Source: Candidatus Micrarchaeota archaeon CG1_02_55_22
Lineage (GTDB): Archaea > Micrarchaeota > Micrarchaeia > Norongarragalinales > UBA97
NCBI GenBank assembly: GCA_001871595.1
Contig: MNVH01000054.1
Coordinates: 1-44,889, forward strand
Direction of reading: 5' to 3'
DNA length: 44,889 nucleotides
Shown: positions 6,528 through 19,278 of the stretch, piece after piece
Layout of the letters: each line of letters begins with the position of its first letter
How positions within the stretch are numbered: the stretch's first letter is position 1
The notes under the pieces: model-generated
The model's input: only the letters and a program-made list of their open reading frames with translations
The model's database searches: none
Told to the model about the DNA's origin: nothing
Made by a program: the position numbers and the translations under genes

Positions 6528-9311
6528 ATGGCTAGCGGCTTTGAGATGCTTGATTCGCGCGTTTGCAGGCTAGCGGAAGCCCGTTTCGGCTTGCCAACCT
6601 CCATACAGTCAAAGGTTTTCCCCGAAATCACTGCAGGGCGCAACGTTTTAGCGGTTGCGCCAACGGGTTTCGGTAAAATGGAGTCGGCTTTCCTCCCTCT
6701 AGTGAGCCGAGTCCTACAACGTAGTGACGCTGGCGAGAAGGATGGCATCATGGCGTTATACATCACGCCGTTAAAAGCGCTTAACCGGGACATGTTCCTG
6801 CGAATGGAACGCTGGTGCAGGCCCCTAGGCGTGTCGTTCGGTGTTCGCCACGGCGATACGACGCAGACGGAACGCGCAAAACAACGCGATGCACCCCCAA
6901 TGGTGATGGTTACCACGCCGGAGAGCCTTTGTGCCTTGCTGATAGCGCCCAAACTACGCGATTCGCTTGCAAAGGTCGAGATTGTAGTCGTTGACGAGGT
7001 CCATGAATTGATTGATTCCAAACGCGGGAGTCAACTTTCACTCGCACTCGAACGCCTGCAAGCGCGTTGCGGCAAGTTGCAGCGCGTTGGCTTGAGCGCG
7101 ACAGTGGGAGACGTCGAAAAGACCGCCGAATTCATTTCCAACAACACGGTTGTTTGCCGCGTTGATTTAGCGCGAAAGACCGAGTTGCGCGTAGAATGTC
7201 CGACCGAAAGAGAAAACGAGTTAACAAATTCGTTGAAGCTCTCGGACGCGGCTGCAGGGCGGGTCTCGCGACTTGCCGAACTAATCAAGGACAGCGATGC
7301 CAGCCTTGTATTCGTGAACACGCGCTCCACTGCTGAATCGCTTGCCGCCATGCTCTACCAATCACCAGAACTAAAGAAAATCGTAGGAGTACACCACGGT
7401 TCGCTGGCACGAGATGACCGCGTAAAAACCGAGTCCGATTTCAAGGCGGGTGGCTCGTTGAAGAGCATTGTCTGCACCAGCTCGCTCGAATTGGGAATCG
7501 ACATCGGTGCGGTAGACTTGACCGTGCAATACCACTCGCCGCGCCAAGTCACACGCCTATTGCAGCGCGTTGGCCGCAGCGGCCACCACAAGGACAAGAC
7601 ATCGAAAGGCGTTATCGTTGCGCTCGACGGAATTGACTGCGCCGAAGCAGCGGTATTATGCAACCGCGCTCACGCCGGAAAACTCGAGGGTGTCACAATC
7701 CCACCACAACCGCTCGATGTGTTGGCCCACCAGCTCGTCGGGTTATGCCTCGACTCGCCGGACGAACGCGTTGATGCGGCCAAGGCGTTCGCGTTGGTGC
7801 GGCGCGCCTCGCCCTACAAACGACTGGAGTACGCAGACTTTCTCGCGGTGGCCGCCCAGCTCAAAGCACAACGGCTACTCTCGGCAAACGCGGATTGGAG
7901 TGTTCTGGCGACGACGCGGGCGAGCAAGCTGTACTACTACTGGAACCTTTCCACCATTCGCAGCCAGAGAAAGTTCTTCGTCAAGGACGCCGAGAAGCGC
8001 CGCAGCGTGGCGTTGCTCGACGAAGAGTTCGTAGCTGAATACGTTACCGAGGGCGGAGTATTCATCACTCACGGCGTGCCTTGGAAGGTTCTTGCCGTCA
8101 CCGACGATGAGGTAATAGTCGAACGAAGCAGCGACTATTCCGCGGCGGTACCTGACTGGGTGGGTGAAGAGATTCCCGTCACATACGACGTCGCACAAGA
8201 CGTGGCGGAATTGCTCGGTAAAGCAAAGAACGCGGACTTGAAGCGCGAGTATTGTTGCGCGCCCGACGCGGACCGAGAAATATCCTCGTACTCGAAAAAA
8301 ATCTCGAAGAGTTTTGTTCCACGCCGGAAAGCCTGGTTCCTCGAAGAACGCGGCCGCACCCTAGTCGTTCATTCCTTCGCCGGCACGCGCGCCAACGAGA
8401 CGATTTCACGCATTCTCACTAGCCTGCTCACCGAATCTTTCAAGTGCTCGGTTTACAGCCGCGTTTCAGCTTACTCCATTGCCTTCGAGACGTCCAAGCC
8501 CATCGCACTCAACGAATTTAGAATGCTGGTCCGCAGCGTTTCCGGCGGTTCGGCCGAAAGCATCATCAACCGCATCATTCCTTCAACCGCGCTATTCCGT
8601 TTTCGCTTCGTCGACGTGGGACGCAGGTTCGGTTTCATCCGCCAAGACGCGGACCTACGCGGCGCCAGCATCAAACGCATAATCGAAACGCAACGCAACG
8701 GCCCGATCTGGAAGGAAGCATTATCGGAAGCGTTGATTGAAAAACTCGATGTACCCCTTGCCCGCAAGCTTTTTGCCGAAGTCCAATCTGGAGCTATTGC
8801 GCTTGAGAACGTCGCTGGTTCATCCCTGCTTACGGGAGAATTTCTTGACGCGTACACTGCGCGCGAAGGCATGGCCCCTGCCGAGCCGACTGACGCGCTA
8901 ATCACCTCGTTCAAGAACAACCTTCTTGCCGAAAAGACGGGTTTCTTGTGCAACTACTGCCACAACACTTTTTCCAAGAAGAATTCCGAACTGGGCGCGG
9001 CGGTGAAATGCCCGATTTGCAAGTCAACGCAACTGACAACAGACAGATACAGCGAAGTCGTCAGCAAATTCTTGAACGGCGCGCGCCTGACGCGAGAGGA
9101 AACAAAACAACTCGCGGAAGCACGGCGGGTCGAATCCCTAATCAACGCGTACGGCGGCAAAGCACTCATCGCGCTCGCCACTTACGGGGTGGGGCCCGAG
9201 ACCGCCGTGCGCGTCCTCTCACGGCTGCATTCAAGCGACTACGCGTTCTACCTCGATTTACTTGACGCACAAAAGAGTTTCCTGCGCACGCGACAATTCT
9301 GGCGCGTGTGA
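6528..9311 (+). CDS. lhr: Lhr-type superfamily 2 DNA helicase
   Basis: This 927-residue protein has the SF2 helicase core in order: Q-motif-like PTSIQSKVFPEI, motif I APTGFGKMESA (residues 44-54), TPLKALNRD, TTPESL, motif II DEVH, motif III LSATVG, then FVNTRSTAESLA, VHHGSL, STSLELGIDIG-type motif V and motif VI LLQRVGRSGHH. The C-terminal half resembles the Lhr winged-helix and accessory region and ends with a four-Cys zinc ribbon (CNYCHNTF...CPICKST). Lhr proteins are ATP-dependent 3'-5' helicases or annealases linked to DNA repair. One oddity is that the motif I Thr/Ser after the Lys is Met here. ATG at 6528 follows GGTG. The next gene starts beyond its stop. Confidence 0.9.
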   Translation: MASGFEMLDSRVCRLAEARFGLPTSIQSKVFPEITAGRNVLAVAPTGFGKMESAFLPLVSRVLQRSDAGEKDGIMALYITPLKALNRDMFLRMERWCRPLGVSFGVRHGDTTQTERAKQRDAPPMVMVTTPESLCALLIAPKLRDSLAKVEIVVVDEVHELIDSKRGSQLSLALERLQARCGKLQRVGLSATVGDVEKTAEFISNNTVVCRVDLARKTELRVECPTERENELTNSLKLSDAAAGRVSRLAELIKDSDASLVFVNTRSTAESLAAMLYQSPELKKIVGVHHGSLARDDRVKTESDFKAGGSLKSIVCTSSLELGIDIGAVDLTVQYHSPRQVTRLLQRVGRSGHHKDKTSKGVIVALDGIDCAEAAVLCNRAHAGKLEGVTIPPQPLDVLAHQLVGLCLDSPDERVDAAKAFALVRRASPYKRLEYADFLAVAAQLKAQRLLSANADWSVLATTRASKLYYYWNLSTIRSQRKFFVKDAEKRRSVALLDEEFVAEYVTEGGVFITHGVPWKVLAVTDDEVIVERSSDYSAAVPDWVGEEIPVTYDVAQDVAELLGKAKNADLKREYCCAPDADREISSYSKKISKSFVPRRKAWFLEERGRTLVVHSFAGTRANETISRILTSLLTESFKCSVYSRVSAYSIAFETSKPIALNEFRMLVRSVSGGSAESIINRIIPSTALFRFRFVDVGRRFGFIRQDADLRGASIKRIIETQRNGPIWKEALSEALIEKLDVPLARKLFAEVQSGAIALENVAGSSLLTGEFLDAYTAREGMAPAEPTDALITSFKNNLLAEKTGFLCNYCHNTFSKKNSELGAAVKCPICKSTQLTTDRYSEVVSKFLNGARLTREETKQLAEARRVESLINAYGGKALIALATYGVGPETAVRVLSRLHSSDYAFYLDLLDAQKSFLRTRQFWRV

Positions 9312-9352: not shown

Positions 9353-9784
9353 GTGAACAAACCGATATTGCTATTTGCATTGTCTTTCCTGCTTCTCGCC
9401 GGCTGCGTTGCTAGACCTGTTGGCCAAGGAAACTACGCGTGCCCCGACGGGACAAAGACTACCAACTTAGCACTATGCGATTATTTGAACGATAAATACA
9501 ATGCCACTAAACCAGCGCTTGACAAGTTCGGCAACCTGCCAGCATTCAACAATAATGCAGGAAACGAGGACACGCCGCCCGCATTACCGGACGGTAGCAC
9601 GCCCGAAGAACTAGATGGCACGAACACGAACCCCAACTTTTGGACGGGCAGCGGCTCAAGCAGTGGAACCAACTACCCCGGCACAACAACGGCGACGCCT
9701 ACCGCAACACCAACGCCACTCGTTCCGCCCGCGCCACCCGCTCCACCGAGCGACGTACTAGCACCACCAGCCCCACCAACCTAG
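9353..9784 (+). CDS. Small secreted lipoprotein, Pro/Thr-rich tail
   Basis: GTG at 9353 starts NKPILLFALSFLLLAGC, a signal peptide with lipobox LAGC, so the mature protein would be lipid-anchored outside the membrane. A short Cys pair region (YACPDGTKTTNLALC) follows, then an acidic, Asn-rich linker and a low-complexity Thr/Pro tail (TATPTATPTP, PPAPPAPP). No enzymatic domain is visible. A TATA-like GATTTAAAA lies near 9324-9332, about 25 bases before the start, fitting a leaderless or short-leader transcript. The same frame is open back to 9308 but the longer N-terminus would bury the signal peptide. The 3' end overlaps a minus-strand small gene by four bases. Confidence 0.7.
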   Translation: MNKPILLFALSFLLLAGCVARPVGQGNYACPDGTKTTNLALCDYLNDKYNATKPALDKFGNLPAFNNNAGNEDTPPALPDGSTPEELDGTNTNPNFWTGSGSSSGTNYPGTTTATPTATPTPLVPPAPPAPPSDVLAPPAPPT

Positions 9785-9951
9785 AAACGTAGAAAACGCT
9801 TGAAGAAACGCGTTACCGGACCGGGTTTTTGCCCGACGGCAACTTCTTTCCCAATCGGATAATATACCTCGACTAAGTCGTAGTCGGGCGGCGAGGGCGG
9901 GGCACGCTCGGTAATCCGAACGCTTCGCTCTTCAAGTATTCTGGGCTTCAA
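9781..9951 (-). CDS. 56-residue protein coupled to the E2 gene
   Basis: Immediately after the E2 stop the minus strand is open for 57 codons, starting with TTG at 9951 that overlaps the E2 stop (TTGA). The product begins KPRILEERSVRITERAPPS, has a PPSPPDYD segment, then strand-like LVEVYYPIGKEV, and ends in a basic aromatic helix (PVTRFFKRFLRF). The composition looks coding rather than random, and the frame spans almost the whole gap to the convergent lipoprotein gene. It would be co-transcribed with the ubiquitin-like and E2 genes. The role is unknown; the tail could contact a membrane. I know of no family for it. Confidence 0.55.
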   Translation of the reverse strand: MKPRILEERSVRITERAPPSPPDYDLVEVYYPIGKEVAVGQKPGPVTRFFKRFLRF

Positions 9952-10424
9952 GAAACCACTCTCGGCATGCGCCGCTGCGGAACGTCTTCCCGCGTCAACA
10001 CGTCAGGGTGCTGGCGGAAGTACTCTGCGGCCACGGGATCGAGCGGGTCTGCCGGATTAGGATTCTCCAGCAACTGCTTCAACCCCGCATACACATCGGC
10101 AAGGCCCTGGGTTGCCGCCCACTCGTTAAGTAATTGAATGCAAACCCGCCCGTCTTCAGCGCGAATGTTAGGGTGGAAGATGGGCGTTATCCACGCAACT
10201 TCAAGACCACCCGCATAAGGATAACTGCGCAAAATATGCAGCCTCACCTTGTGCTTGTCAATAACAATTATAACGCCGTTCTCTTTCGCCAATCCTTTGG
10301 CGGACAACTCGAAAGTGCACTCAGTACGGTCAAGGTTGGAAGTGAAAGGAATCTTTAACCGCTCGAGTTCGGCGTACTCGGCGTCAAGGCGACGCCTAAA
10401 TATTGCGTCCGGAAGCTGCGGCAT
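9948..10424 (-). CDS. Ubiquitin-conjugating enzyme E2 (UBC fold)
   Basis: This 158-residue protein has the hallmark E2 active-site region: YPYAGGLEVAWITPIFHPNI, then GRVCIQLL and a Trp. HPN is at 84-86, the candidate catalytic Cys is C95 and the conserved Trp is W102. The downstream helix (LADVYAGLKQLLENPNPADPLDP) matches the E2 helix with the LL.PNP.DPL signature. E2s receive ubiquitin from E1 as a thioester and pass it to a target with or without an E3. The ATG follows the ubiquitin-like stop codon directly, with no gap, so the two are translationally coupled. The N-terminal 60 residues are diverged but of the right length for the first helix and meander. Confidence 0.93.
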   Translation of the reverse strand: MPQLPDAIFRRRLDAEYAELERLKIPFTSNLDRTECTFELSAKGLAKENGVIIVIDKHKVRLHILRSYPYAGGLEVAWITPIFHPNIRAEDGRVCIQLLNEWAATQGLADVYAGLKQLLENPNPADPLDPVAAEYFRQHPDVLTREDVPQRRMPRVVS

Positions 10425-10667
10425 TCAACCACCCGTAGGGTCTGGAATGAGTAGGAGCTTAGAACCCTCGGCCACTCCCGCGTCCTTGAGCTGCAAATCC
10501 GGATTGAGTATCTTATTATCCTCGGTCGCGATGACAAACCGGTCCTTCAACTGCAAACTCTCCACCAGAACCTCGAGTATCGAAGAAACAGTAAAGTCGG
10601 GCTCCACCGCGAGGACGACTTCCTTTCCCGACGTCGAGTGAAAAACGGTAATCTTGAATTCAGCCAA
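10425..10667 (-). CDS. Ubiquitin-like modifier ending in Gly-Gly
   Basis: The 80-residue product has the beta-grasp plan: strand FKITVFHST, strand KEVVLAVEP, helix TVSSILEVLVESLQL, strand RFVIATEDNKILNPD and a last strand KLLLIPDPTGG. It stops exactly after the Gly-Gly needed for adenylation and thioester transfer, so no precursor processing is needed. TTG at 10667 is preferred, as AGGGGTG at 10680-10674 is then a well-spaced ribosome binding site; GTG at 10676 is in frame but lies in that site. It is the first gene of a unit with E2. Other beta-grasp carriers (MoaD, ThiS, SAMP) also end in GG, but the neighbours argue for protein modification. Confidence 0.9.
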   Translation of the reverse strand: MAEFKITVFHSTSGKEVVLAVEPDFTVSSILEVLVESLQLKDRFVIATEDNKILNPDLQLKDAGVAEGSKLLLIPDPTGG

Positions 10668-10676
10668 AAAAAACAC

Positions 10677-10739
10677 CCCTAAACGCGGCGCCCCGCGACG
10701 AACGTATTTTATTACCGCCCATTATTTAATACGTTGTAG
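10677..10739. promoter_or_regulatory. Divergent promoter between the two ubiquitin-system units
   Basis: The 60-base gap has TATTTTAT (about 10705-10712), placed to give a leaderless plus-strand transcript starting near the ATG at 10740. On the minus strand TTAAATAATG (about 10729-10720) would give a short leader carrying AGGGGTG. One compact region can therefore drive both units. Confidence 0.5.
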
Positions 10740-11447
10740 ATGGACAAGCCCCGCATAATTGCTGTTGCCAACAGGGGCGAAGAACGCCCACCCAATTTAC
10801 CAGCTCCCGCACTCACCGACCTAGAAAAGAGCGTGCTCGAAAGAATGGTTGACCGCGGCGAGATGACGCCCGAAGAATACGAACAAGAAACCGGAGAGAA
10901 ACCCACGAAAAAAACCACGCCCCCCAAAGACACACCGCAACCAACACAAACTCCCGAACCAGTACAAACACCAGCCACCGAAGAACCAAAAGGGCCTATT
11001 GAACAGCCGCCTGCACAAACCGAACTACCAACTGAGCCAGCACCTGCGCCCGAAGAACCAAAAGAAGAACCCAAAGACGCGATCGAACAGCCGGCAGTAA
11101 CCAAACAACCCGCGACGCCAACCCCACCAATAGAAGACTCGCTCACCGAAGCCGACTTGGATAAGGACGGAGAAGAGCTCGCCGAAGAAATCGATGACAA
11201 ACCGCGCATCGTCTCGCAAACCACGCCGCGCGAGCGGGAAGTAAAGGAGATTGACGAGATTGCGCGCGAAAACGCTTCACGGGACATCGCGCCAGTAACG
11301 CGCAACGTAGAACAACCGTTAACCTACTCGACTGATGAAGAGAAAGCGCGCGCAGTAGAACAAGCAAAACGGTTGTACGCGGAACGACGGAAACGCTCGA
11401 GCCCGTGGCACGCGCTCAAGCGCATCTTTGGAATGGCGAAGGAATAA
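10740..11447 (+). CDS. Pro/Glu-rich, mostly disordered protein in the ubiquitin cluster
   Basis: Residues 1-16 (MDKPRIIAVANRGEER) are followed by a short helical module, DLEKSVLERMVDRGEMTPEE, that resembles the SHOCT motif found at protein ends. About 90 residues of Pro/Thr/Glu-rich, probably unfolded sequence follow, then an acidic patch with a second DDKPRIVSQTTPRERE, reminiscent of the N-terminus. The C-terminus is helical and basic (KRLYAERRKRSSPWHALKRI), possibly amphipathic. The stop overlaps the ATG of the JAMM gene (TAATG). I do not recognise a family; an adaptor or substrate of the ubiquitin system is the simplest inference. Confidence 0.65.
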   Translation: MDKPRIIAVANRGEERPPNLPAPALTDLEKSVLERMVDRGEMTPEEYEQETGEKPTKKTTPPKDTPQPTQTPEPVQTPATEEPKGPIEQPPAQTELPTEPAPAPEEPKEEPKDAIEQPAVTKQPATPTPPIEDSLTEADLDKDGEELAEEIDDKPRIVSQTTPREREVKEIDEIARENASRDIAPVTRNVEQPLTYSTDEEKARAVEQAKRLYAERRKRSSPWHALKRIFGMAKE

Positions 11448-11917
11448 TGGTTCTCGAAGCGTACGTTGAGGAAAGCGTGATGCGGCAAGCCGAAGCGCTC
11501 GCAATCGAAGCGGGAAAGAAAGGCAACGAATCCATGGGCCTCCTAATCGGAAGCGTTGCACGGCACGAAGGAAACACCTACGTAATCGCCGACCGCTTCG
11601 CAACAGCACACAACTCGGAGAGCCCGATAATGGTGCGCTTCGAAAACGACGCTTTCCCCGACTTAGCGCGCCAGATAAATTCCGCGAACGGCATCGTGGT
11701 CGGCTGGATTCACTCACACCCAGGCTACGGATGCTTCCTCAGCGCCACCGACATTTCAACCCAGAAGAAATACTTCAACGAAACATTCAGCGTGGCATTC
11801 GTAATAGACCCGTACAAGCGCGACGAGAACGGACAAATCCTCAAGCGCGCGTTCAAACTTACAAATGGAAACAACTATAGAGAAGCCGGCTTCGCAGTCT
11901 ACCACAAAAAAGCGTAG
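11447..11917 (+). CDS. Rpn11-like JAMM/MPN+ metalloprotease (deubiquitinase)
   Basis: The 156-residue protein carries a full JAMM motif. E28 lies in ESMGLLIG, and GWIHSHPGYGCFLSATD places zinc ligands H89, H91 and D102 with S99. The stretch is strikingly close to eukaryotic Rpn11 (HSHPGFGCWLS...D.NTQ), including the ISTQ after the Asp, followed by FSVAFVIDP. JAMM enzymes cleave isopeptide bonds after ubiquitin Gly-Gly. Because the modifier already ends in GG, removal of conjugates is more likely than precursor processing. The ATG overlaps the upstream stop (TAATG). The same frame is open from 11405, but that extension duplicates the end of the upstream gene. Confidence 0.93.
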   Translation: MVLEAYVEESVMRQAEALAIEAGKKGNESMGLLIGSVARHEGNTYVIADRFATAHNSESPIMVRFENDAFPDLARQINSANGIVVGWIHSHPGYGCFLSATDISTQKKYFNETFSVAFVIDPYKRDENGQILKRAFKLTNGNNYREAGFAVYHKKA

Positions 11918-12680
11918 AAGCACGAAACCGAAACTCACCACATTCGACAAGGATATCTTCATCCTTATCCGCCGCGGCACCCAAACAATCGCCGAACTAA
12001 CAACAGCGACAGGCGTCGACGCGGCCGAGACATGCAAGCGTCTCCTGCAGTTGGAGAAACAAAAACTGGTCTCTTTCGACGCAGCAAATCCTGAACGCGT
12101 CAACCTAACAATCAAAGGCTACAACTCGTTCACGCCAGCAGCGCTCGAAACGTCTTCGGAAAAGAAGGCAAAGAAAGCCATTGCAAAAAAAATGCCAACG
12201 CAAACCATCCAAACCGCTCCTGCACAACCGCTCGAACCCGAAACCACTCAACCAGCTCAAACCTCTTCGGAAAAGGAAGCCGCTCCCCGCATCGACTTGA
12301 GCGAGATGCTCGCCCGCGGCGCACCGCGGAACGACGACGCCCAAAAAACCATTGCGCAGCCAGCGCCTTTCAATATACAGCAATCCACTCCCGCTAAAAC
12401 ACAACCAACACCGCCCGCCCGAACTAGACAAACGCCGCCCGCCGAACAAAAGCAGTCCGAACGCTGCGCGCTCTGCAAGGGCGAGTTCGTCATCACAGTC
12501 AAAGGCGACCAAGCAAAGTACGCGCACTGCCACCACTGCGGCGCGGCGTACCACAAGGACTGCCACGAAACAATGATTACCGACGGCGGCGCCTGCCTAC
12601 ACTGCGGCCGCAAACTCGAAGCAGTCATGGACAAACGCAGCTACGATGTAGTCAAACAACTAAAAGACGCATTCGAATGA
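11865..12680 (+). CDS. Winged-helix plus RING-like zinc protein (candidate E3)
   Basis: This 271-residue protein has three parts. Residues about 20-90 look like a winged helix (KDIFILIRRGTQTIAELTTA, then a CKRLLQLEKQKLVSF recognition helix). Residues 95-195 are a Thr/Pro/Gln-rich linker. Residues 199-250 carry eight metal ligands in cross-brace order: C201xxC204, C222xxC225, H230xxC233, C244xxC247. This C4HC3 arrangement with CGAAYHKDC is like prokaryotic RING domains that accompany ubiquitin-type operons. A RING protein would act as E3, bringing charged E2 to a target. ATG at 11865 overlaps the JAMM gene by 53 bases; no later start precedes the winged helix. Confidence 0.82.
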   Translation: METTIEKPASQSTTKKRRSTKPKLTTFDKDIFILIRRGTQTIAELTTATGVDAAETCKRLLQLEKQKLVSFDAANPERVNLTIKGYNSFTPAALETSSEKKAKKAIAKKMPTQTIQTAPAQPLEPETTQPAQTSSEKEAAPRIDLSEMLARGAPRNDDAQKTIAQPAPFNIQQSTPAKTQPTPPARTRQTPPAEQKQSERCALCKGEFVITVKGDQAKYAHCHHCGAAYHKDCHETMITDGGACLHCGRKLEAVMDKRSYDVVKQLKDAFE

Positions 12681-12699
12681 CACCCAACACGCGTTAAGA

Positions 12700-13143
12700 C
12701 TAGTCGACGTATACATTTCCTTGCGCGACGTTGGTCAAGTCGTCGTAGTACGAGTACACGCCGGGCACGTTGAACGTTTTCTTGAACGTCTGCTTGCCGC
12801 CAATCGTTCCTGAATAGAATGATTCGGGCGCGCCCTCGCGGCTCCTCACCGAATGCAACCTGCCATCCTGATTAGTCCACGTCACAGTCGCACCCATGGA
12901 AACACGAATAGATTCAGGGCTGAAGGACGAATAGAGAATATCGACCGCGTCGGCGGCAACTGCTTCAAGCGTCGGAGATGGCGAGGGAGAAAAAACTTCA
13001 CCGTCAGCCACGGGCGAAGCCGTGGCCTCGCCAATCACACTTCCGGAAGGCGTTGGTGAAGCCGCCGGCACGTCTTCAATGCAACCTAAAACCAAGAACG
13101 ATGAAAGCAATAACACTGCTAAAACGAACTTCAACAAAACCAC
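12700..13143 (-). CDS. Cupredoxin-fold lipoprotein lacking most copper ligands
   Basis: The signal peptide VLLKFVLAVLLLSSFLVLGC with lipobox predicts a lipid-anchored external protein. After a Ser/Pro/Thr linker, the C-terminal 85 residues have a plastocyanin-like pattern: SPESIRVSMGATVTWTNQD, LHSVRS, then FKKTFNVPGVYSYY...GNVYV. The first His ligand (LHSV) is present, but the usual C-x2-H-x-M/G loop is replaced by YYDDLTNVAQG, so a type 1 copper site is unlikely. GTG at 13143 opens the frame; GGTGG at 13145-13141 suggests that TTG at 13137 or 13134 is the true start. Its link to the ubiquitin genes is only positional. Confidence 0.72.
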   Translation of the reverse strand: MVLLKFVLAVLLLSSFLVLGCIEDVPAASPTPSGSVIGEATASPVADGEVFSPSPSPTLEAVAADAVDILYSSFSPESIRVSMGATVTWTNQDGRLHSVRSREGAPESFYSGTIGGKQTFKKTFNVPGVYSYYDDLTNVAQGNVYVD

Positions 13144-13190
13144 CTAACAACTAGTTCGCTCTACAAGTTAAAAGCAGTTACGCTAATCCG

Positions 13191-13967
13191 TTATCCGTGT
13201 ACTGGGCACGATTTCCGCTTGGAAACCGAGAACACGCTGAACTTGTTCGACAACCCGTTGAAGAACGCATACTTTCCCACGAGCGAATCAGCTGGAAAGC
13301 CTTGCCCGCCGTGGGCGAGCTTGACGAACTCGTTCACCTGCAAAGCGGCAACCACCGCGGTCGTAGTCGGCAGTGCAGGCATCTTCGGATCTACAAGGTC
13401 AAGCATCTCGCCCGTACACGAGTACTTTCTCCAAAGCAACTGGTAATCGCGCTTGTTCACACTGCACTCCAAGCAAGGTGACGGCGACGCTACGACCTGC
13501 ACTTTACCACTAAAACCAGTCGTACCGCCATCAATCAAAGCCACGTGCCCGTAAGCGTGCGCATTAACATGCAGCCGCGCACCCAAGTTGTCCAAGCACG
13601 CAAAAGCGTAGTCAAACCGCCCGGAAAAGTAGATGTCCGCCGGAAGCAATTCAAGGTTCTTCACAATAGCGTTCACCCGCGCCAACGGATTGACTTCTGT
13701 TGCGCGACGCGCAATCACTGTTGCCTTGTAATTCTCGTTTTCCGCATCAGCAGGCGTAAAGAAGACACACCTATTCAAGTTAGCTCTAACAACGCGGTCG
13801 TAATCGACAATCGTAATGTCTTTGACGCCCAACTGAAGCAGATTTTTTACTACTTCGTTGCCCAACGCACCAGCGCCAAAAACAAGACACCGCGCTCCTT
13901 CAACGTTTTCCTGCCGCCAGCCCGAGACGCGTTTCTGCCTATCCCACTGGTCGGAATCAATACCCAT
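13191..13967 (-). CDS. E1-like ubiquitin-activating enzyme (ThiF/MoeB/E1 fold)
   Basis: The 258-residue protein has the adenylation-domain signatures: R13 near the N-terminus, the nucleotide loop FGAGALG (30-36), acidic VDYD (54-57), NLNR (63-66), K81 and CLDN with D126. CLEC (165-168) and SCPVH near the C-terminus could bind zinc, although the last pair is C-x2-H rather than C-x2-C. C184 in KYSCTGE is followed by Thr, as in the CT motif of eukaryotic E1 catalytic cysteines, and by a PALPTTTAVVAALQVNEFVK helix. There is no ubiquitin-fold domain. ATG at 13967 or GTG at 13973 are possible starts. It would adenylate the GG-ended modifier and pass it to E2. Confidence 0.9.
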   Translation of the reverse strand: MGIDSDQWDRQKRVSGWRQENVEGARCLVFGAGALGNEVVKNLLQLGVKDITIVDYDRVVRANLNRCVFFTPADAENENYKATVIARRATEVNPLARVNAIVKNLELLPADIYFSGRFDYAFACLDNLGARLHVNAHAYGHVALIDGGTTGFSGKVQVVASPSPCLECSVNKRDYQLLWRKYSCTGEMLDLVDPKMPALPTTTAVVAALQVNEFVKLAHGGQGFPADSLVGKYAFFNGLSNKFSVFSVSKRKSCPVHG

Positions 13968-14021: not shown

Positions 14022-14624
14022 ATGAACAAACAGCGAGTGTGGCTCAGCCTAGTCGCAGCCAACGTAATAATCTACTTACTACAGCTAGGAACGAGCGGCG
14101 GCTTCGACCAACTATTCATGCTCTCAGGCTCCACCGTCGCGGCAAGACCGTGGACACTAATCACGTCAATGTTCCTGCACGGCAGCATACTCCACTTGCT
14201 GCTCAACATGTGGGCACTCTTCGTCTTCGGCAGCCTCCTCGAACCCAAGATAGGCGCCAAAAAGTTCCTAGCAGTCTACTTTGTTGCAGGATTGCTCGCC
14301 AACGCAGCATTCCTAGCATTCTATCCGGCCAACATCTTCGGCCTCGGCGCGTCCGGCGCGATATTCGGCATCATCGGCGCACTCACTGTACTCGAACCAA
14401 ACATCCAACTCCTAGTATTCTTCATCCCCATGCCGCTCTGGATAGCAGCAATACTCTGGGCACTCTACGACCTCGTGCTGTTACAGGCGCCCGGCAGCGC
14501 AATCGCCAATGCTGCGCATTTGGGCGGACTCGCGGCAGGACTAGCCGCAGGATACTACTTGAAGAGCCGGGACAAGACAGTGGAAGAAGACGTCTGGGCC
14601 TACTCGCGCTCGCGAGGATACTAA
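14022..14624 (+). CDS. Rhomboid-family intramembrane serine protease
   Basis: The 200-residue protein has six or so hydrophobic segments and all rhomboid signatures: HGSILHLLLNMWALFVFG, the catalytic Ser in GLGASGAIFG, and the catalytic His in NAAHLGGLAAGLAAGY. Rhomboids cleave transmembrane segments inside the membrane. ATG at 14022 starts a short cytoplasmic MNKQRVW before the first helix; the open frame further upstream lies over the E1 gene and is not coding. The C-terminal 20 residues are charged. It is divergent from the E1 gene with about 54 bases between starts, so shared regulation is possible. Confidence 0.92.
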   Translation: MNKQRVWLSLVAANVIIYLLQLGTSGGFDQLFMLSGSTVAARPWTLITSMFLHGSILHLLLNMWALFVFGSLLEPKIGAKKFLAVYFVAGLLANAAFLAFYPANIFGLGASGAIFGIIGALTVLEPNIQLLVFFIPMPLWIAAILWALYDLVLLQAPGSAIANAAHLGGLAAGLAAGYYLKSRDKTVEEDVWAYSRSRGY

Positions 14625-14625
14625 C

Positions 14626-15888
14626 TTACCACTCATTCAATCGCCGCTGTCTAAGTATCGTGCTCTTCTCGATGTACGCCGAAATAGGCCTTTTCAAGCG
14701 CGTTGCTAGTACGGCGAGCGCCTCGCGCAGCGTTGAACACTTCGTCGGCGGGGTCTGCATCGCGTGCCTCGAGTTCTCGCGCACCTCCCACACGCCAACC
14801 GGCACAGTATACCCTTCTCCGATTTCACGGAAAACGATGGCACGAGCCTGCCGGCGCATCCGGTGAAGGGCCTCGATTACGCCCAAGCGCCCCGCATAGT
14901 ACCCGCCGCCCTCACTCTCGGCGTACTTTGTCCTTCCCGCAAAGGGCTCGTACTCATGCTCTATCGCGCCAGTGGACTGGACCGCCCACGGCGTGGAGGG
15001 CGCCCACGACTCGAACTGCTCGAACTCCCAAGCACCCGGCAACAAGAGTATCTCGAAATGGTTGTCCAAAAACGTATTCGAATAGATTCGAAAATCGTTG
15101 ATGTGCGGGTACTCGCGCACTTTCTGCAACAACTGCTTGCCGATCATGTCGTCGGACGCGGTAATGCTCCACTTTGTGGGCACGAGCTTCTTGTTCACAC
15201 CCAATACCCCCGCGCTCAAGATCTTCTGGATATAATAGAAATCAAACCGCTTCAACAGTTCAGGCAACGCCTTGCGCACGAGCAACTTCTCCTCCACGAG
15301 CGCGTCAACCTTCGGCGAAATCACAGGATTACCGACAAGCTTGAACCGGCGAATATCCCCGCTGGGCCCCATTGGCTGGCTTGTCGGCGAAAAATTATAC
15401 GAGAAAGTAGGGCGCTTGGTAAAATCGACTTCCACATCAACCGACCGCGACGAGAGCACGGAGTCCTGCAATTGAGAGAGGAAAACGCTCTGCTCCGACA
15501 CCGCATGCTGCTTCTTTCCACGTACAAGGCTGGTAGCAAAACCAACTATTTCGCCATAATCCCGGCCGTACCACGACGCGGGCGAAGAAAAGAAATCAGC
15601 ATCCATACAGTCAGAAACTGATACAAGCGGCCCCACCATGACTTTCGGATAACCGTATTCGCCCACGAACGCGTTCGGGGGCGTGGGCCCGAAAACATTC
15701 TCGCCAACCCGCCGCTCGACGTCGGGTGCAGTCAACAAAGACGAAAGAATGGGAGAAGCCTTGGTGCCCCAGTAAAGCTGCCCGTTGTAGCGTACGGCGA
15801 CCTGGCTGCCAAAGCGCACTACCTCCAAGTCCTTGAATACCGAACGCTTCGGAATGGACAAACGCCGGTTAAGCGACACACCCTGCAT
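14626..15888 (-). CDS. NreA-like DNA repair protein with C-terminal PIP-like motif
   Basis: The core matches archaeal NreA proteins: PPNAFVGEYGYPKVMVGPL near residue 70, an ASWYGRDYGEIVGFATSLVRG segment split here as seen, and VPVGVWEVREN near the end. The protein ends QRRLNEW, a Q-x-x-L-x-x-W form of the PCNA-binding box; NreA is known to bind PCNA through such a tail and to act in repair of alkylated DNA. ATG at 15888 is used; the frame is open to 15954. In another frame ATG at 15896 starts MCLCRVCRLTGVCP, reminiscent of the Cys-rich N-terminus of the family, so a frameshift may hide the true start. Confidence 0.8.
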   Translation of the reverse strand: MQGVSLNRRLSIPKRSVFKDLEVVRFGSQVAVRYNGQLYWGTKASPILSSLLTAPDVERRVGENVFGPTPPNAFVGEYGYPKVMVGPLVSVSDCMDADFFSSPASWYGRDYGEIVGFATSLVRGKKQHAVSEQSVFLSQLQDSVLSSRSVDVEVDFTKRPTFSYNFSPTSQPMGPSGDIRRFKLVGNPVISPKVDALVEEKLLVRKALPELLKRFDFYYIQKILSAGVLGVNKKLVPTKWSITASDDMIGKQLLQKVREYPHINDFRIYSNTFLDNHFEILLLPGAWEFEQFESWAPSTPWAVQSTGAIEHEYEPFAGRTKYAESEGGGYYAGRLGVIEALHRMRRQARAIVFREIGEGYTVPVGVWEVRENSRHAMQTPPTKCSTLREALAVLATRLKRPISAYIEKSTILRQRRLNEW

Positions 15889-16046
15889 AAGCACATTTCC
15901 CAATAAATAGCTAATAAGCCTTGCGAGGCCACCTTGCCGCCGCCAAGCAAGCAAAAACAGGCGTAAAAGACAACAACCCAGTGAAGCCTCATACGACTAT
16001 CATATAAGCCCCCTAAAAAAGGTAGTAAAAAACCCGTTTCACCAAG

Positions 16047-16183: not shown

Positions 16184-17359
16184 ATGTCTGAAAACGCTTC
16201 AATATTCAATGCGAAGGATAAACTCCTCGAAAGCCTCGGCTGGCGGGAGAACCCATTCATCAAAGACCTCCGCATTTACGACAAGGACTCGTTTATGAAG
16301 TATTACTGCCCGCTCGACGGCGAAAAACTCCTCTCCAAGCTTGCTTTCGACACCAAGGCAGTCATGTTCATAGGCCCCAAGGGTGTTGGCAAGACGTCAG
16401 CAATGTACTACGCATTCTACTCGATTCCCCGCGACGAGTTCGACGTAATAATGTTCAAGCACCCGCCTTCGAGCCTTACCGAACTAGCCCACGAAAGCGG
16501 AATACTAAAGCCTAAAGGCATCATGGGCGCGTTGAGCGGGCTGCTCGGCAAGAAGAACGAATCAGTGACGCGCACCGCAGTGATAGATGCCTTGCGCGAG
16601 AACGCGAAGAAGACGGTTTTCTTCCTCGACGAGGCACACCTCGAAGTGAATCCCGAGATGTACATGGAATTCAAGTACCTCCTCGACGATGTGCCCAACT
16701 TGCGCCTCGTAGTGTGCGCGCTCAGCCGGGAAAAATTCCCTGATTCGCTCATGCACCTGGTTGGCGAAAACAACATTTTCGACCGCAAGGGCTTCAGCCG
16801 CGACGAGATGATTGAGATAATCAAGCACCGCATCGAGGCAGTCGGAGGAAAGGGAACACACCCGTTCTCGCGCGGCGCACTCGAAGAAGTGCTGACCGAA
16901 CAAAACCTTCTCACGCCGCGCTACGTCTTCGACGAGCTCAACGCACGCCTGGCAAAGATGGCTGCGGGCAAAATCGACCTCAAGCAAGAAGCCTCACGCC
17001 TCGGCGCTAACGACCCCATCGTCGAAGCAGTGCTCTCCGACAACGCGTCCAAACCAATCACAAAGACGCACGCCAAGTGGTGGGTGTTGCTCTCACCCTC
17101 GCAACAACAAATCATGGAAATGCTGCTCTCCGAGAAGGCAGGATTGACGCTGAGCGAAATATGTGAAAAATCGGGCTTGGCGCAGAACACTGCATTCAAC
17201 GCACTCTACCAGCTGCGCGGCGACGACAAGAAGGAACGCGAACGCAAGAAAGACGTACCGTTCCCCCTCGTCAACGTCGACGGACGCCTTGTAGGGGGAC
17301 GCAAAAAGAACGTTTATTTCGTTGCGAAGAAAGTGCGCAACATTTTCACGCTTGACTAG
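16184..17359 (+). CDS. AAA+ ATPase with C-terminal helix-turn-helix (Orc/ExeA-like)
   Basis: The 391-residue protein starts with a LGWRENPF segment like those before the AAA+ core of Orc/Cdc6 and ExeA/TniB ATPases. Walker A is GPKGVGKT (64-71) and Walker B is VFFLDEAH (D149, E150), and a lid region with PRYVFDELNARL follows. The last 100 residues form a winged helix (MEMLLSEKAGLTLSEICEKS, broken at 20, then a recognition helix). Such proteins bind DNA and remodel it; I cannot tell a replication initiator from a transcription or segregation ATPase. GGTGGA precedes the ATG. A small gene follows after a 12-base gap. Confidence 0.7.
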   Translation: MSENASIFNAKDKLLESLGWRENPFIKDLRIYDKDSFMKYYCPLDGEKLLSKLAFDTKAVMFIGPKGVGKTSAMYYAFYSIPRDEFDVIMFKHPPSSLTELAHESGILKPKGIMGALSGLLGKKNESVTRTAVIDALRENAKKTVFFLDEAHLEVNPEMYMEFKYLLDDVPNLRLVVCALSREKFPDSLMHLVGENNIFDRKGFSRDEMIEIIKHRIEAVGGKGTHPFSRGALEEVLTEQNLLTPRYVFDELNARLAKMAAGKIDLKQEASRLGANDPIVEAVLSDNASKPITKTHAKWWVLLSPSQQQIMEMLLSEKAGLTLSEICEKSGLAQNTAFNALYQLRGDDKKERERKKDVPFPLVNVDGRLVGGRKKNVYFVAKKVRNIFTLD

Positions 17360-17601: not shown

Positions 17602-17823
17602 ATGACCAAGGCAGAGTTATCGCTATTCGACATGGATGATTTCATTCGCGGCGCGGGTGCAGAACGCGTCAGCGAGTGCGCGAGCCGCAAACTACGAGAA
17701 ATACTCGAAGACGAAGTCAACGCAGTCGTATTCAAGGCAAAAATCCTAGCCCGCCACGCCGGACGCAGCCGCGTCACGCGCCAAGACATCCAACTCGCGG
17801 CAAACCTAATCCACGGAGCGTAG
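17602..17823 (+). CDS. Archaeal histone
   Basis: The 73-residue protein has a histone fold without tails: FIRGAGAERVSECASRKLRE for helix 1 and the start of helix 2, a long helix (EDEVNAVVFKAKILARHAG), then RSRVTRQDIQLAANLI, the loop 2 plus helix 3 signature seen as RKTIKAEDIELA in HMf-type histones. Arg in the RSRVT loop and the RxD pair are conserved. It binds and wraps DNA as a dimer or larger assembly. ATG at 17602 follows GGAAGGTGGGA. The N-terminal 15 residues are slightly longer and more acidic than in HMf. The 3' end overlaps the convergent DHH gene by 18 bases. Confidence 0.93.
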   Translation: MTKAELSLFDMDDFIRGAGAERVSECASRKLREILEDEVNAVVFKAKILARHAGRSRVTRQDIQLAANLIHGA

Positions 17824-19278
17824 TTGCCCTTCGAGGAGTTCCTTGCACTTTAAGAGGAACTCAGCCTCCTTGCCCGCTGGCACGGATGCGCCGGCGGCAA
17901 TCTTATGCCCCCCGCCCAAGCCACCAACCGACTCGGACGCGGTGCGCATCACAAGATTCAAATCAAGACCTTTTTCCACGAGTTCGGGAATGCCGCGACT
18001 GCTTATCTTTACCCACGCTTTCTCGTCGAGCGAAAAGCCGAGTATGGGCTTGTCGCGCTTTATCACGCCCGCATTATAGAACCCGCCGATAACCGTACCG
18101 ATAACGGTATCTTCAACCTTTCCTCGGGCGTCAACGAAGTAGAACGGCCCGAAATCAGAGCAGTGCCGCCTAGCATAGGAAATACCCTTACTAATCATCA
18201 AGCGATGATGTTGCAGCACGCTCTTCGATTCTTCGAACGCGCCCGGCTCGCGCAAGCAAACTCGTATGCCTAATTCCTCGTGGCCGTGCCTACCGCACGC
18301 GTTCAACAAAGTAGAGAACTCGTAAGCATCGTACAACTCGGTGTTGACTGGCTGTCGCGGGAAAACGTAGACCTCACCCACCATGCGCTCGACCACGTCG
18401 GGCTCAACGCCTTCGGCGAGGGCGCGGTTTACCAGAACGCTCACGAACTGTTTTCTGACGTTCCCGTCCAAATCATTGTAATGCAGGAACTTATCGCCAG
18501 CCTTAAACTCAATGCCCGCATCCTCCAACAACAACGCACAACCCTTGGCGTCACCGGTGAGCCCGTCAATAAGGGGCTCGCTGGAAAAAGAGAGGAAATT
18601 GACGAGGTTTCGCGAGACGCGACCGAACATGCGCAAATCTCGCCGTTTCTCGATAAGACCCCGTTCAACAGCTTCCGAGACCAGTTCGGCGTTTAGTGAA
18701 ACGAGCCCGCGATTGTCCTGCATGTCGCCAACCGCGCCGACCACGGCTAGATAGACTAAATCCCAATTGTCGCGCTCTCCCTGCAGCGAATCGCGCCAGA
18801 GAGCGTCGCGGAAGCAATAGAAAGCAGTTGAAGCGCCGCACGCATCCGTACTACCGCTATAACCGTGCAGTTCAGGGTTGGCGTGCAAGATGCCGGGAGC
18901 GTCTTTCTGCGGCACGTGGTGGTCAATAACAGCAAGATTGAAATCGGGCGCGACGAGCTTCTCAAGCACACCAATCTGGCCCGCACCCAAATCAACGAAG
19001 ACCAAGGCAGTAAAATTGCCCGCCCGAGCCGTTTCCACGGCCTTCTTGACTGTTTCATCGTCCACCCGCTTGAGGCTGAGCGTAGCGTAACGCTTGTTCG
19101 CACGCCTGAGGACATTAGCAACAAGGCCGCCGGACGAGAGCCCGTCAGCATCATAGTGGTGGCACACGAGCACAGACTCAAAACCCAATACCGCGTTTCC
19201 TACGCGTTTGCACTCATCCTGGAACGAGGACGTCCTACGGGGTGCTTCGCCGTCATCGTCGAAGAGCGTGGTCTGCAT
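17806..19278 (-). CDS. RecJ-like DHH/DHHA1 phosphoesterase
   Basis: This 490-residue protein carries DHH motifs in order: HHYDADGLSSGGL, FVDLGAG, VIDHHVP and GAVGDMQ, giving the metal ligands of RecJ-type nucleases. The C-terminal DHHA1 motif is GGGHKIAAGA. Archaeal RecJ homologues are 5'-3' or 3'-5' exonucleases or subunits of the GINS-CMG complex (GAN); sequence alone does not separate these roles. ATG at 19278 is preceded on the minus strand by TTATTATTG about 30 bases upstream, fitting a leaderless transcript. No long insertion or loss of active-site residues was noted. Confidence 0.9.
   Translation of the reverse strand: MQTTLFDDDGEAPRRTSSFQDECKRVGNAVLGFESVLVCHHYDADGLSSGGLVANVLRRANKRYATLSLKRVDDETVKKAVETARAGNFTALVFVDLGAGQIGVLEKLVAPDFNLAVIDHHVPQKDAPGILHANPELHGYSGSTDACGASTAFYCFRDALWRDSLQGERDNWDLVYLAVVGAVGDMQDNRGLVSLNAELVSEAVERGLIEKRRDLRMFGRVSRNLVNFLSFSSEPLIDGLTGDAKGCALLLEDAGIEFKAGDKFLHYNDLDGNVRKQFVSVLVNRALAEGVEPDVVERMVGEVYVFPRQPVNTELYDAYEFSTLLNACGRHGHEELGIRVCLREPGAFEESKSVLQHHRLMISKGISYARRHCSDFGPFYFVDARGKVEDTVIGTVIGGFYNAGVIKRDKPILGFSLDEKAWVKISSRGIPELVEKGLDLNLVMRTASESVGGLGGGHKIAAGASVPAGKEAEFLLKCKELLEGQLRSVD

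Follow-up and report, generated by a model that had tools for sequence, protein, structure and literature searches.

Does the small genome of a DPANN archaeon encode a whole ubiquitin-type conjugation pathway, and if it does, to which of the known archaeal systems is that pathway related? The question is raised by a gene cluster at positions 9781-13967 of the window, a stretch of 44,889 nucleotides that is the whole contig MNVH01000054.1 of a metagenome-assembled genome (MAG), Candidatus Micrarchaeota archaeon CG1_02_55_22 (1.19 Mb, 82% complete). An earlier interpretation made from the letters alone (the sequence-only reading) had placed here a modifier, a ubiquitin-conjugating enzyme (E2), an Rpn11-like JAMM protease, a RING-like protein and a ubiquitin-activating enzyme (E1). 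Open reading frame (ORF) reading and profile searches recover all five where it had put them, and the presumption that the set is complete is borne out by sequence, with modifier, E1, E2, RING candidate and JAMM all present. We conclude that a whole ubiquitin-type conjugation pathway, and a reversible one, is very probably encoded here. The pathway itself is well supported by sequence; catalysis, the ligase (E3) role, the docking partner of a recurrent motif, membrane tethering and substrates are inferred.

The modifier (10425-10667, minus strand) is a beta-grasp protein with a C-terminal Gly-Gly, nearer to ubiquitin and SUMO than to MoaD and ThiS. Translation more likely begins at the TTG at 10667, giving 80 aa, than at the GTG at 10676, because the relatives are about 80 aa long and begin with MxEF. 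The protein ends in PDPTGG, with G82 and G83 invariant in 24 relatives; among the 24 modifiers, 18 end at the Gly-Gly and six run on for 1-18 residues. A profile of the family matched only ubiquitins in the PDB (best single chain, 0.002), and the SUMO-like Rad60-SLD model was matched by 24/24 relatives, compared to just 3/24 for Pfam ThiS. Consistent with this, the predicted structure (predicted local distance difference test score of 83.6) retrieved ubiquitin, Caldiarchaeum subterraneum ubiquitin (TMq 0.84) and SUMO1 in Foldseek. Grouping of the modifier with MoaD, ThiS or SAMP, which the sequence-only reading had named as one outcome that would refute it, was not seen, and we reject MoaD/ThiS membership on the PDB profile matches and the Pfam counts.

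The E1 (13191-13967, minus strand) is a short, single-domain enzyme of 258 aa that matches ThiF at 2e-44. Its C184 lies in a YSCTG context and is invariant in 20/20 sequences, as are the residues of the adenylation core; other short E1s also have a cysteine at the equivalent position. The enzyme has a putative zinc site, CxxC...CPVH, and no C-terminal ubiquitin-fold domain. Against the PDB, its profile scored 6e-35 with the active half of Uba1, compared to 7e-26 with MoeB, and UBA3 and SAE2 were also close. These comparisons bear on the proposal that the modifier is paired with the E1 as in sulfur-carrier or SAMP/Urm1-like systems (MoaD/ThiS with MoeB/ThiF), with the E2 and RING neighbors being incidental. 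An E1 as short as MoeB/ThiF would fit such a pair, and curated ThiF, MoeB and UbaA models do match it, far under their cut-offs. However, the proposal is highly improbable given a modifier that resembles ubiquitin, an E1 closest to Uba1, UBA3 and SAE2 with an invariant C184, the position of MoeB/ThiF outside the archaeal E1s in the E1 tree, and the co-occurrence of E2, E1 and RING protein throughout the order to which the window belongs. SAMP/Urm1 and MoaD/ThiS systems resemble the Micrarchaeal one in pairing a beta-grasp modifier with a ThiF-type enzyme, but they have no E2 or RING protein, and the Micrarchaeal modifier does not match theirs.

The E2 (9948-10424, minus strand; PF00179, 6.6e-17) carries H84-P85-N86 and C95, which are invariant in 26 relatives, and ends in MPRVVS. 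In the PDB its profile matched UBE2H (2e-18) and other E2s. It is thus a catalytic UBC protein rather than an RWD/UEV one, and an affiliation with non-UBC RWD proteins, the second outcome flagged beforehand, was likewise not seen. The JAMM protein (11447-11917, plus strand) combines a glutamate with an HxHP...S..D metal site, and its E28, H89, H91, S99 and D102 are invariant in 23 relatives. It matches JAB (PF01398) at 7.9e-14, and its closest PDB match is Rpn11 (8e-22), followed by C. subterraneum Rpn11 (6.6e-19).

The candidate E3 (11865-12680, plus strand) joins a winged helix-turn-helix (wHTH), at about aa 26-105, to a C4HC3 zinc domain at aa 201-248 (12465-12608) whose eight zinc ligands are invariant in 21 relatives. 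With these ligands, every catalytic or zinc-binding residue that the sequence-only reading had named proves invariant across 20-26 relatives. The assignment as a RING protein is a candidate one, resting on the ligands and the genome context rather than on a fold or family match, and three results weigh against it or against its expected partnership with the E2. Pfam models for C1, FYVE and PHD domains score as well as RING, all below their cut-offs. The AlphaFold2 (AF2) model is confident for the winged helix and moderate for the zinc domain, and a Foldseek search with it returned matches to the winged helix only, with no RING among them. Finally, contacts with RING have been proposed for the C. 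subterraneum E2 at P67/Y68 in loop 4 and P103/S104 in loop 7 (PMC5654768). The loop-4 Pro-Tyr is retained in the Micrarchaeal E2 (P69-Y70), while the loop-7 proline after W102 is found in 1/26 Micrarchaeal E2s, making the canonical E2-RING contact doubtful; an altered contact is therefore to be expected.

Taken together, these components suggest the following cycle. The short E1 would adenylate the C-terminal Gly-Gly of the modifier, load the modifier on C184 and hand it over to C95 of the E2, with the wHTH-RING protein assisting transfer as an E3. The Rpn11-like JAMM would remove the modifier from conjugates and mature the minority of modifiers that extend past the Gly-Gly. Cdc48 would be the likeliest unfoldase for any degradation of conjugates, because the 20S proteasome and CDC48_N occur in 29/29 genomes of the order and the PAN/ARC-type OB domain (PF16450) in 0/29.

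The genes form three transcription units rather than the two divergent ones previously proposed. A mini-protein, the E2 and the modifier are read leftward; a proline-rich protein, the JAMM and the RING protein are read rightward; and the E1 is a third unit, leftward. The end of the modifier gene at 10425 abuts the E2 start at 10424, and the JAMM gene starts in a TAATG overlap, both of which ORF reading confirms as originally described. The intergenic region between the divergent units (10668-10739) presumably holds both promoters. In related genomes, the divergent arrangement of E2-modifier and proline-rich-JAMM-RING, with the E1 facing the RING gene, is kept wherever the genes share a contig stretch.

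The layout and the additional proteins had been thought to set this particular version apart. Instead, the gene set is a trait of one order of the Micrarchaeota and is not specific to the window. By UBC-family search, the E2 was detected in 26/29 genomes of the order and in 0/272 genomes from the rest of the phylum; the corresponding counts are 25/29 for the E1 and 26/29 for the RING protein. The eight genomes of the order that are at least 90% complete each have all three, and only two of the 29 have none of them: G300, which is 79% complete and makes up a family of its own, and G290, which is 61% complete. Contamination or chimerism of the MAG is ruled out, as more than 20 separate assemblies carry this cluster, often together with its flanks. 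No match was found when viral contigs were scanned with the E2, or when the window was scanned with Rfam and for tRNAs.

Could the cluster be a Bil/CBASS-type system that conjugates proteins against phage? In favor, E1-E2 (Cap2-like) and BilC/BilD models gave weak matches. PADLOC matches were partial, with the E1 matching E1-E2 fusions at 5e-12 and no match for the E2 or the modifier. Moreover, the cluster is a fixed trait of one order, and the genes that flank it are for repair and replication, not defense. Such an origin is very hard to credit, and we reject membership among defense systems, the matches to whose models are only partial and weak.

To which archaeal system is the pathway related? 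Trees of the E1 (69 rows, including MoeB/ThiF) and the E2 (76 rows) place it in a second ubiquitin lineage of archaea, to which Thermoplasmatota also belong. In the E1 tree, the Micrarchaeal E1s form one clade (support 100/94) that is sister to Thermoplasmatota (97/90); these two join Desulfurococcales and a second Asgard type in one clade, separate from the Caldarchaeal and classical Asgard E1s (100/99), labels that for loci L147-L206 rest on the phylum searched and the gene context. In the E2 tree, too, Caldarchaeal and classical Asgard sequences stay together (100/99); the Micrarchaeal rows, which do not form a single clade there, are joined by the second Asgard type (94/78). Sequence features follow the same division. 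Micrarchaeal E2s have a C-x6-W spacing, whereas C-x7-W-x-P is found in 30/30 Caldarchaeal and 27/27 scored classical Asgard E2s, and the loop-7 proline, present in all scored classical E2s, is found in hardly any from Thermoplasmatota. The median length of the E1 ORF is 254 aa in Micrarchaeota, and the group medians across the second lineage are 254-294 aa, compared to 395 and 349 aa in the classical groups.

The sequence-only reading had called the cluster eukaryote-like and comparable to those of Caldiarchaeum and Asgard archaea. The component list is indeed the same, but the trees and the E2 features set this system apart. C. subterraneum also clusters a modifier, E1, E2, RING candidate and Rpn11-like JAMM, and its E2 has the loop-4 Pro-Tyr (PMC5654768, PMC6043591). 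Its conjugation cascade has been shown biochemically (PMC5654768), its Rpn11-like protein is a processing protease, and prokaryotic JAMMs in operons with ubiquitin, E1 and E2 have already been noted (PMC6043591). It differs in its E1/E2 lineage, its longer E1, the retained loop-7 proline, a single operon plus JAMM, and a RING-H2 protein (srfp) in place of the wHTH-C4HC3 protein. If Micrarchaeota had acquired or inherited a system of the classical Caldiarchaeum/Asgard type, this would account for the shared list, RING candidate included, and for the nearness of the JAMM to C. subterraneum Rpn11. However, the two lineages separated in the E1 tree, the C-x6-W spacing, the mostly missing loop-7 proline, the short E1 and the E2 tails described below make this explanation scarcely tenable, and membership in the classical lineage is rejected on the trees and the E2 signature.

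The closest parallels lie in the second lineage itself. The Thermoplasmatota operon (Methanomassiliicoccales and relatives) has the same short E1 with SCTG, PDPxGG modifier, UBC E2 and JAMM; it differs in being one operon, with no wHTH-RING gene nearby by profile. Across loci L081-L131, this E1-modifier-E2-JAMM operon is widespread in Thermoplasmatota, including Methanomassiliicoccales; in L081 and L091 the modifier or JAMM sits within a much longer ORF. The second Asgard type (L075, L077, L078) shares the short E1 with SCTG, an LPxxIW-type E2 N-terminus and the JAMM, and has the E2s nearest to those of Micrarchaeota, but these end in an acidic stretch, DDILVID or DDIVIIDD, that resembles a SUMO-interacting motif (SIM), as opposed to the Micrarchaeal KPRIV. 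One locus labeled Bathyarchaeota, L076, has an E2 nearly identical in parts to that of Asgard L075, reflecting misbinning or recent transfer. In the literature searched, with preprints outside its scope, no Micrarchaeal ubiquitin system is described.

The unrecognized extra proteins of the sequence-only reading turn out to be conserved parts of the system that share a motif, [K/R/G]-P-[R/K]-[I/V]-[I/V], which is also found on the E2 tail and is almost absent from other genes. Every Micrarchaeal E2 (26/26) ends in a variable linker followed by P[RK][IV][IV] within the last nine residues, PRVV at 9954-9965 (minus strand) in the window, and a relaxed form of this tail motif was found in 0/30 Caldarchaeal and 0/30 classical Asgard E2s. 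The mini-protein (9781-9951, minus strand; 56 aa), whose TTG start overlaps the E2 stop, matches no Pfam or NCBIfam family and is kept downstream of the E2 in 23/26 loci. Its consensus, MxKPRIVxVKExxxEERxPPSExxYEF, follows the opening motif with a second conserved block, ERxPPSExxYEF, and in the closest pair of genes 5/7 base changes fall at third codon positions. The window's copy has an N-terminal KPRIL..ERAPPSPPDYD and a C-terminal amphipathic VTRFFKRFLRF. The proline-rich, scaffold-like protein (10740-11447, plus strand) carries KPRII at its N-terminus (10746-10760), KPRIV internally (11199-11213), a SHOCT-like stretch and a C-terminal amphipathic SSPWHALKRIF. The motif opens this family and is mostly repeated internally, and nearly all relatives whose contig extends far enough have a homologue or positional equivalent; we judged the family by motif and position because an iterative family search also drew in antisense ORFs of the modifier gene.

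Counts of the motif underline this restriction. Strict matches number 43 in 600 genes of 26 loci, with 42 in proteins of the system, including one E1 N-terminal extension, and one elsewhere. Across the 29 genomes, the N-terminal form was matched 11 times, nine of them in the cluster, compared to one match for the control. In Thermoplasmatota, many E2s end in the same motif, and the two-block module forms the N-terminus of the JAMM in many loci rather than lying on separate proteins. Because of this fusion, there is a hint that the Micrarchaeal mini-protein may work with the JAMM. We found no earlier description of the motif in the literature, supplements and preprints being outside the scope of that search.

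What might the motif do? We tentatively suggest, at somewhat below even odds, that it is a docking tag by which the E2 tail, mini-protein and proline-rich protein would bind one common partner. Our first choice of partner is the modifier, with the motif as a SIM-like strand of reversed charge, a reading that suits an acidic modifier and a basic motif. Net charges of the modifiers run from -3 to -8; acidic residues are invariant at E25, E/D35 and E/D39, and helix 1 carries invariant acids. The eukaryotic SUMO pathway offers a parallel, since the modifier fits Rad60-SLD and several components have a short hydrophobic strand motif; the flanking charge is reversed relative to a SIM, and binding here is putative. 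Alternatively, the same pathway could operate with E1, RING protein or JAMM as the docking site of the motif, which might, for instance, recruit the E2 in place of the ubiquitin-fold domain that the E1 lacks. Eukaryotic E1s recruit their E2 through a C-terminal domain of just the kind that the short E1 is missing. At L030 the E1 (11335-12240, minus strand) has an N-terminal extension bearing GPKIV, a version of the motif, and the Thermoplasmatota fusion to the JAMM also fits a partner of this kind. Against it, the simplest reader for a tag found on E2, mini-protein, scaffold and, in Thermoplasmatota, the JAMM would be a contact common to them all, the modifier, whose acidity matches the basic tag. 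This alternative falls just short of an even chance, and E1, RING protein and JAMM together are about as likely a partner as the modifier.

Some of the machinery may also be anchored at the membrane through the amphipathic C-termini found on the proline-rich protein and on some mini-proteins. These C-terminal helices look like membrane-targeting helices, yet tethering is the weakest of our inferences and is weakly supported, and we would put it at about one chance in three. The hydrophobic moment of the proline-rich C-terminus argues against it, with a median of 0.62, below the background 95th percentile of 0.67, which most rows do not exceed.

Other genes lie within and beside the cluster. 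A cupredoxin-like lipoprotein (12700-13143, minus strand) sits between the RING and E1 genes and appears accessory, being found in only five loci. Beside the E1, an ORF at 14022-14624 (plus strand) is a rhomboid-like membrane protein by eye (GASGAIFGIIG, HLLLNM). Often conserved neighbors are an Lhr-type helicase (6528-9311), an NreA-like DNA repair protein (14626-15954), and an ATPase (16184-17359), a histone-fold-like ORF (17614-17823) and a RecJ-like protein (17806-19278), the last three named by eye only. The flanking repair and replication genes, such as Lhr helicase and NreA, are only suggestive of a link between the cluster and DNA repair. We reject the NreA linkage as specific: the gene is class-wide, and several genomes have it and the cluster on different contigs.

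In its fullest form, our proposal is of a second deep archaeal ubiquitin lineage, in Micrarchaeota, Thermoplasmatota, Desulfurococcales and some Asgard archaea, in which a basic, charge-reversed counterpart of the SIM gathers E2, deubiquitinase and membrane-tethered scaffolds at the modifier, making a membrane ubiquitin hub in a DPANN archaeon; taken as a whole, this is speculative and rather unlikely. The shared tag offers a simple handle on the assembly of a minimal system, whose six or seven small proteins suit reconstitution. In the literature searched, complete archaeal ubiquitin cascades appear for Caldiarchaeum and Asgard archaea, as forerunners of the eukaryotic one. The cascade proposed here spans an order of DPANN archaea with small genomes; its closest relatives are those of Thermoplasmatota, and its E1/E2 signature is its own. 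If this cascade is real, pathways of E1, E2, modifier and deubiquitinase diversified within the archaea along at least two lines.

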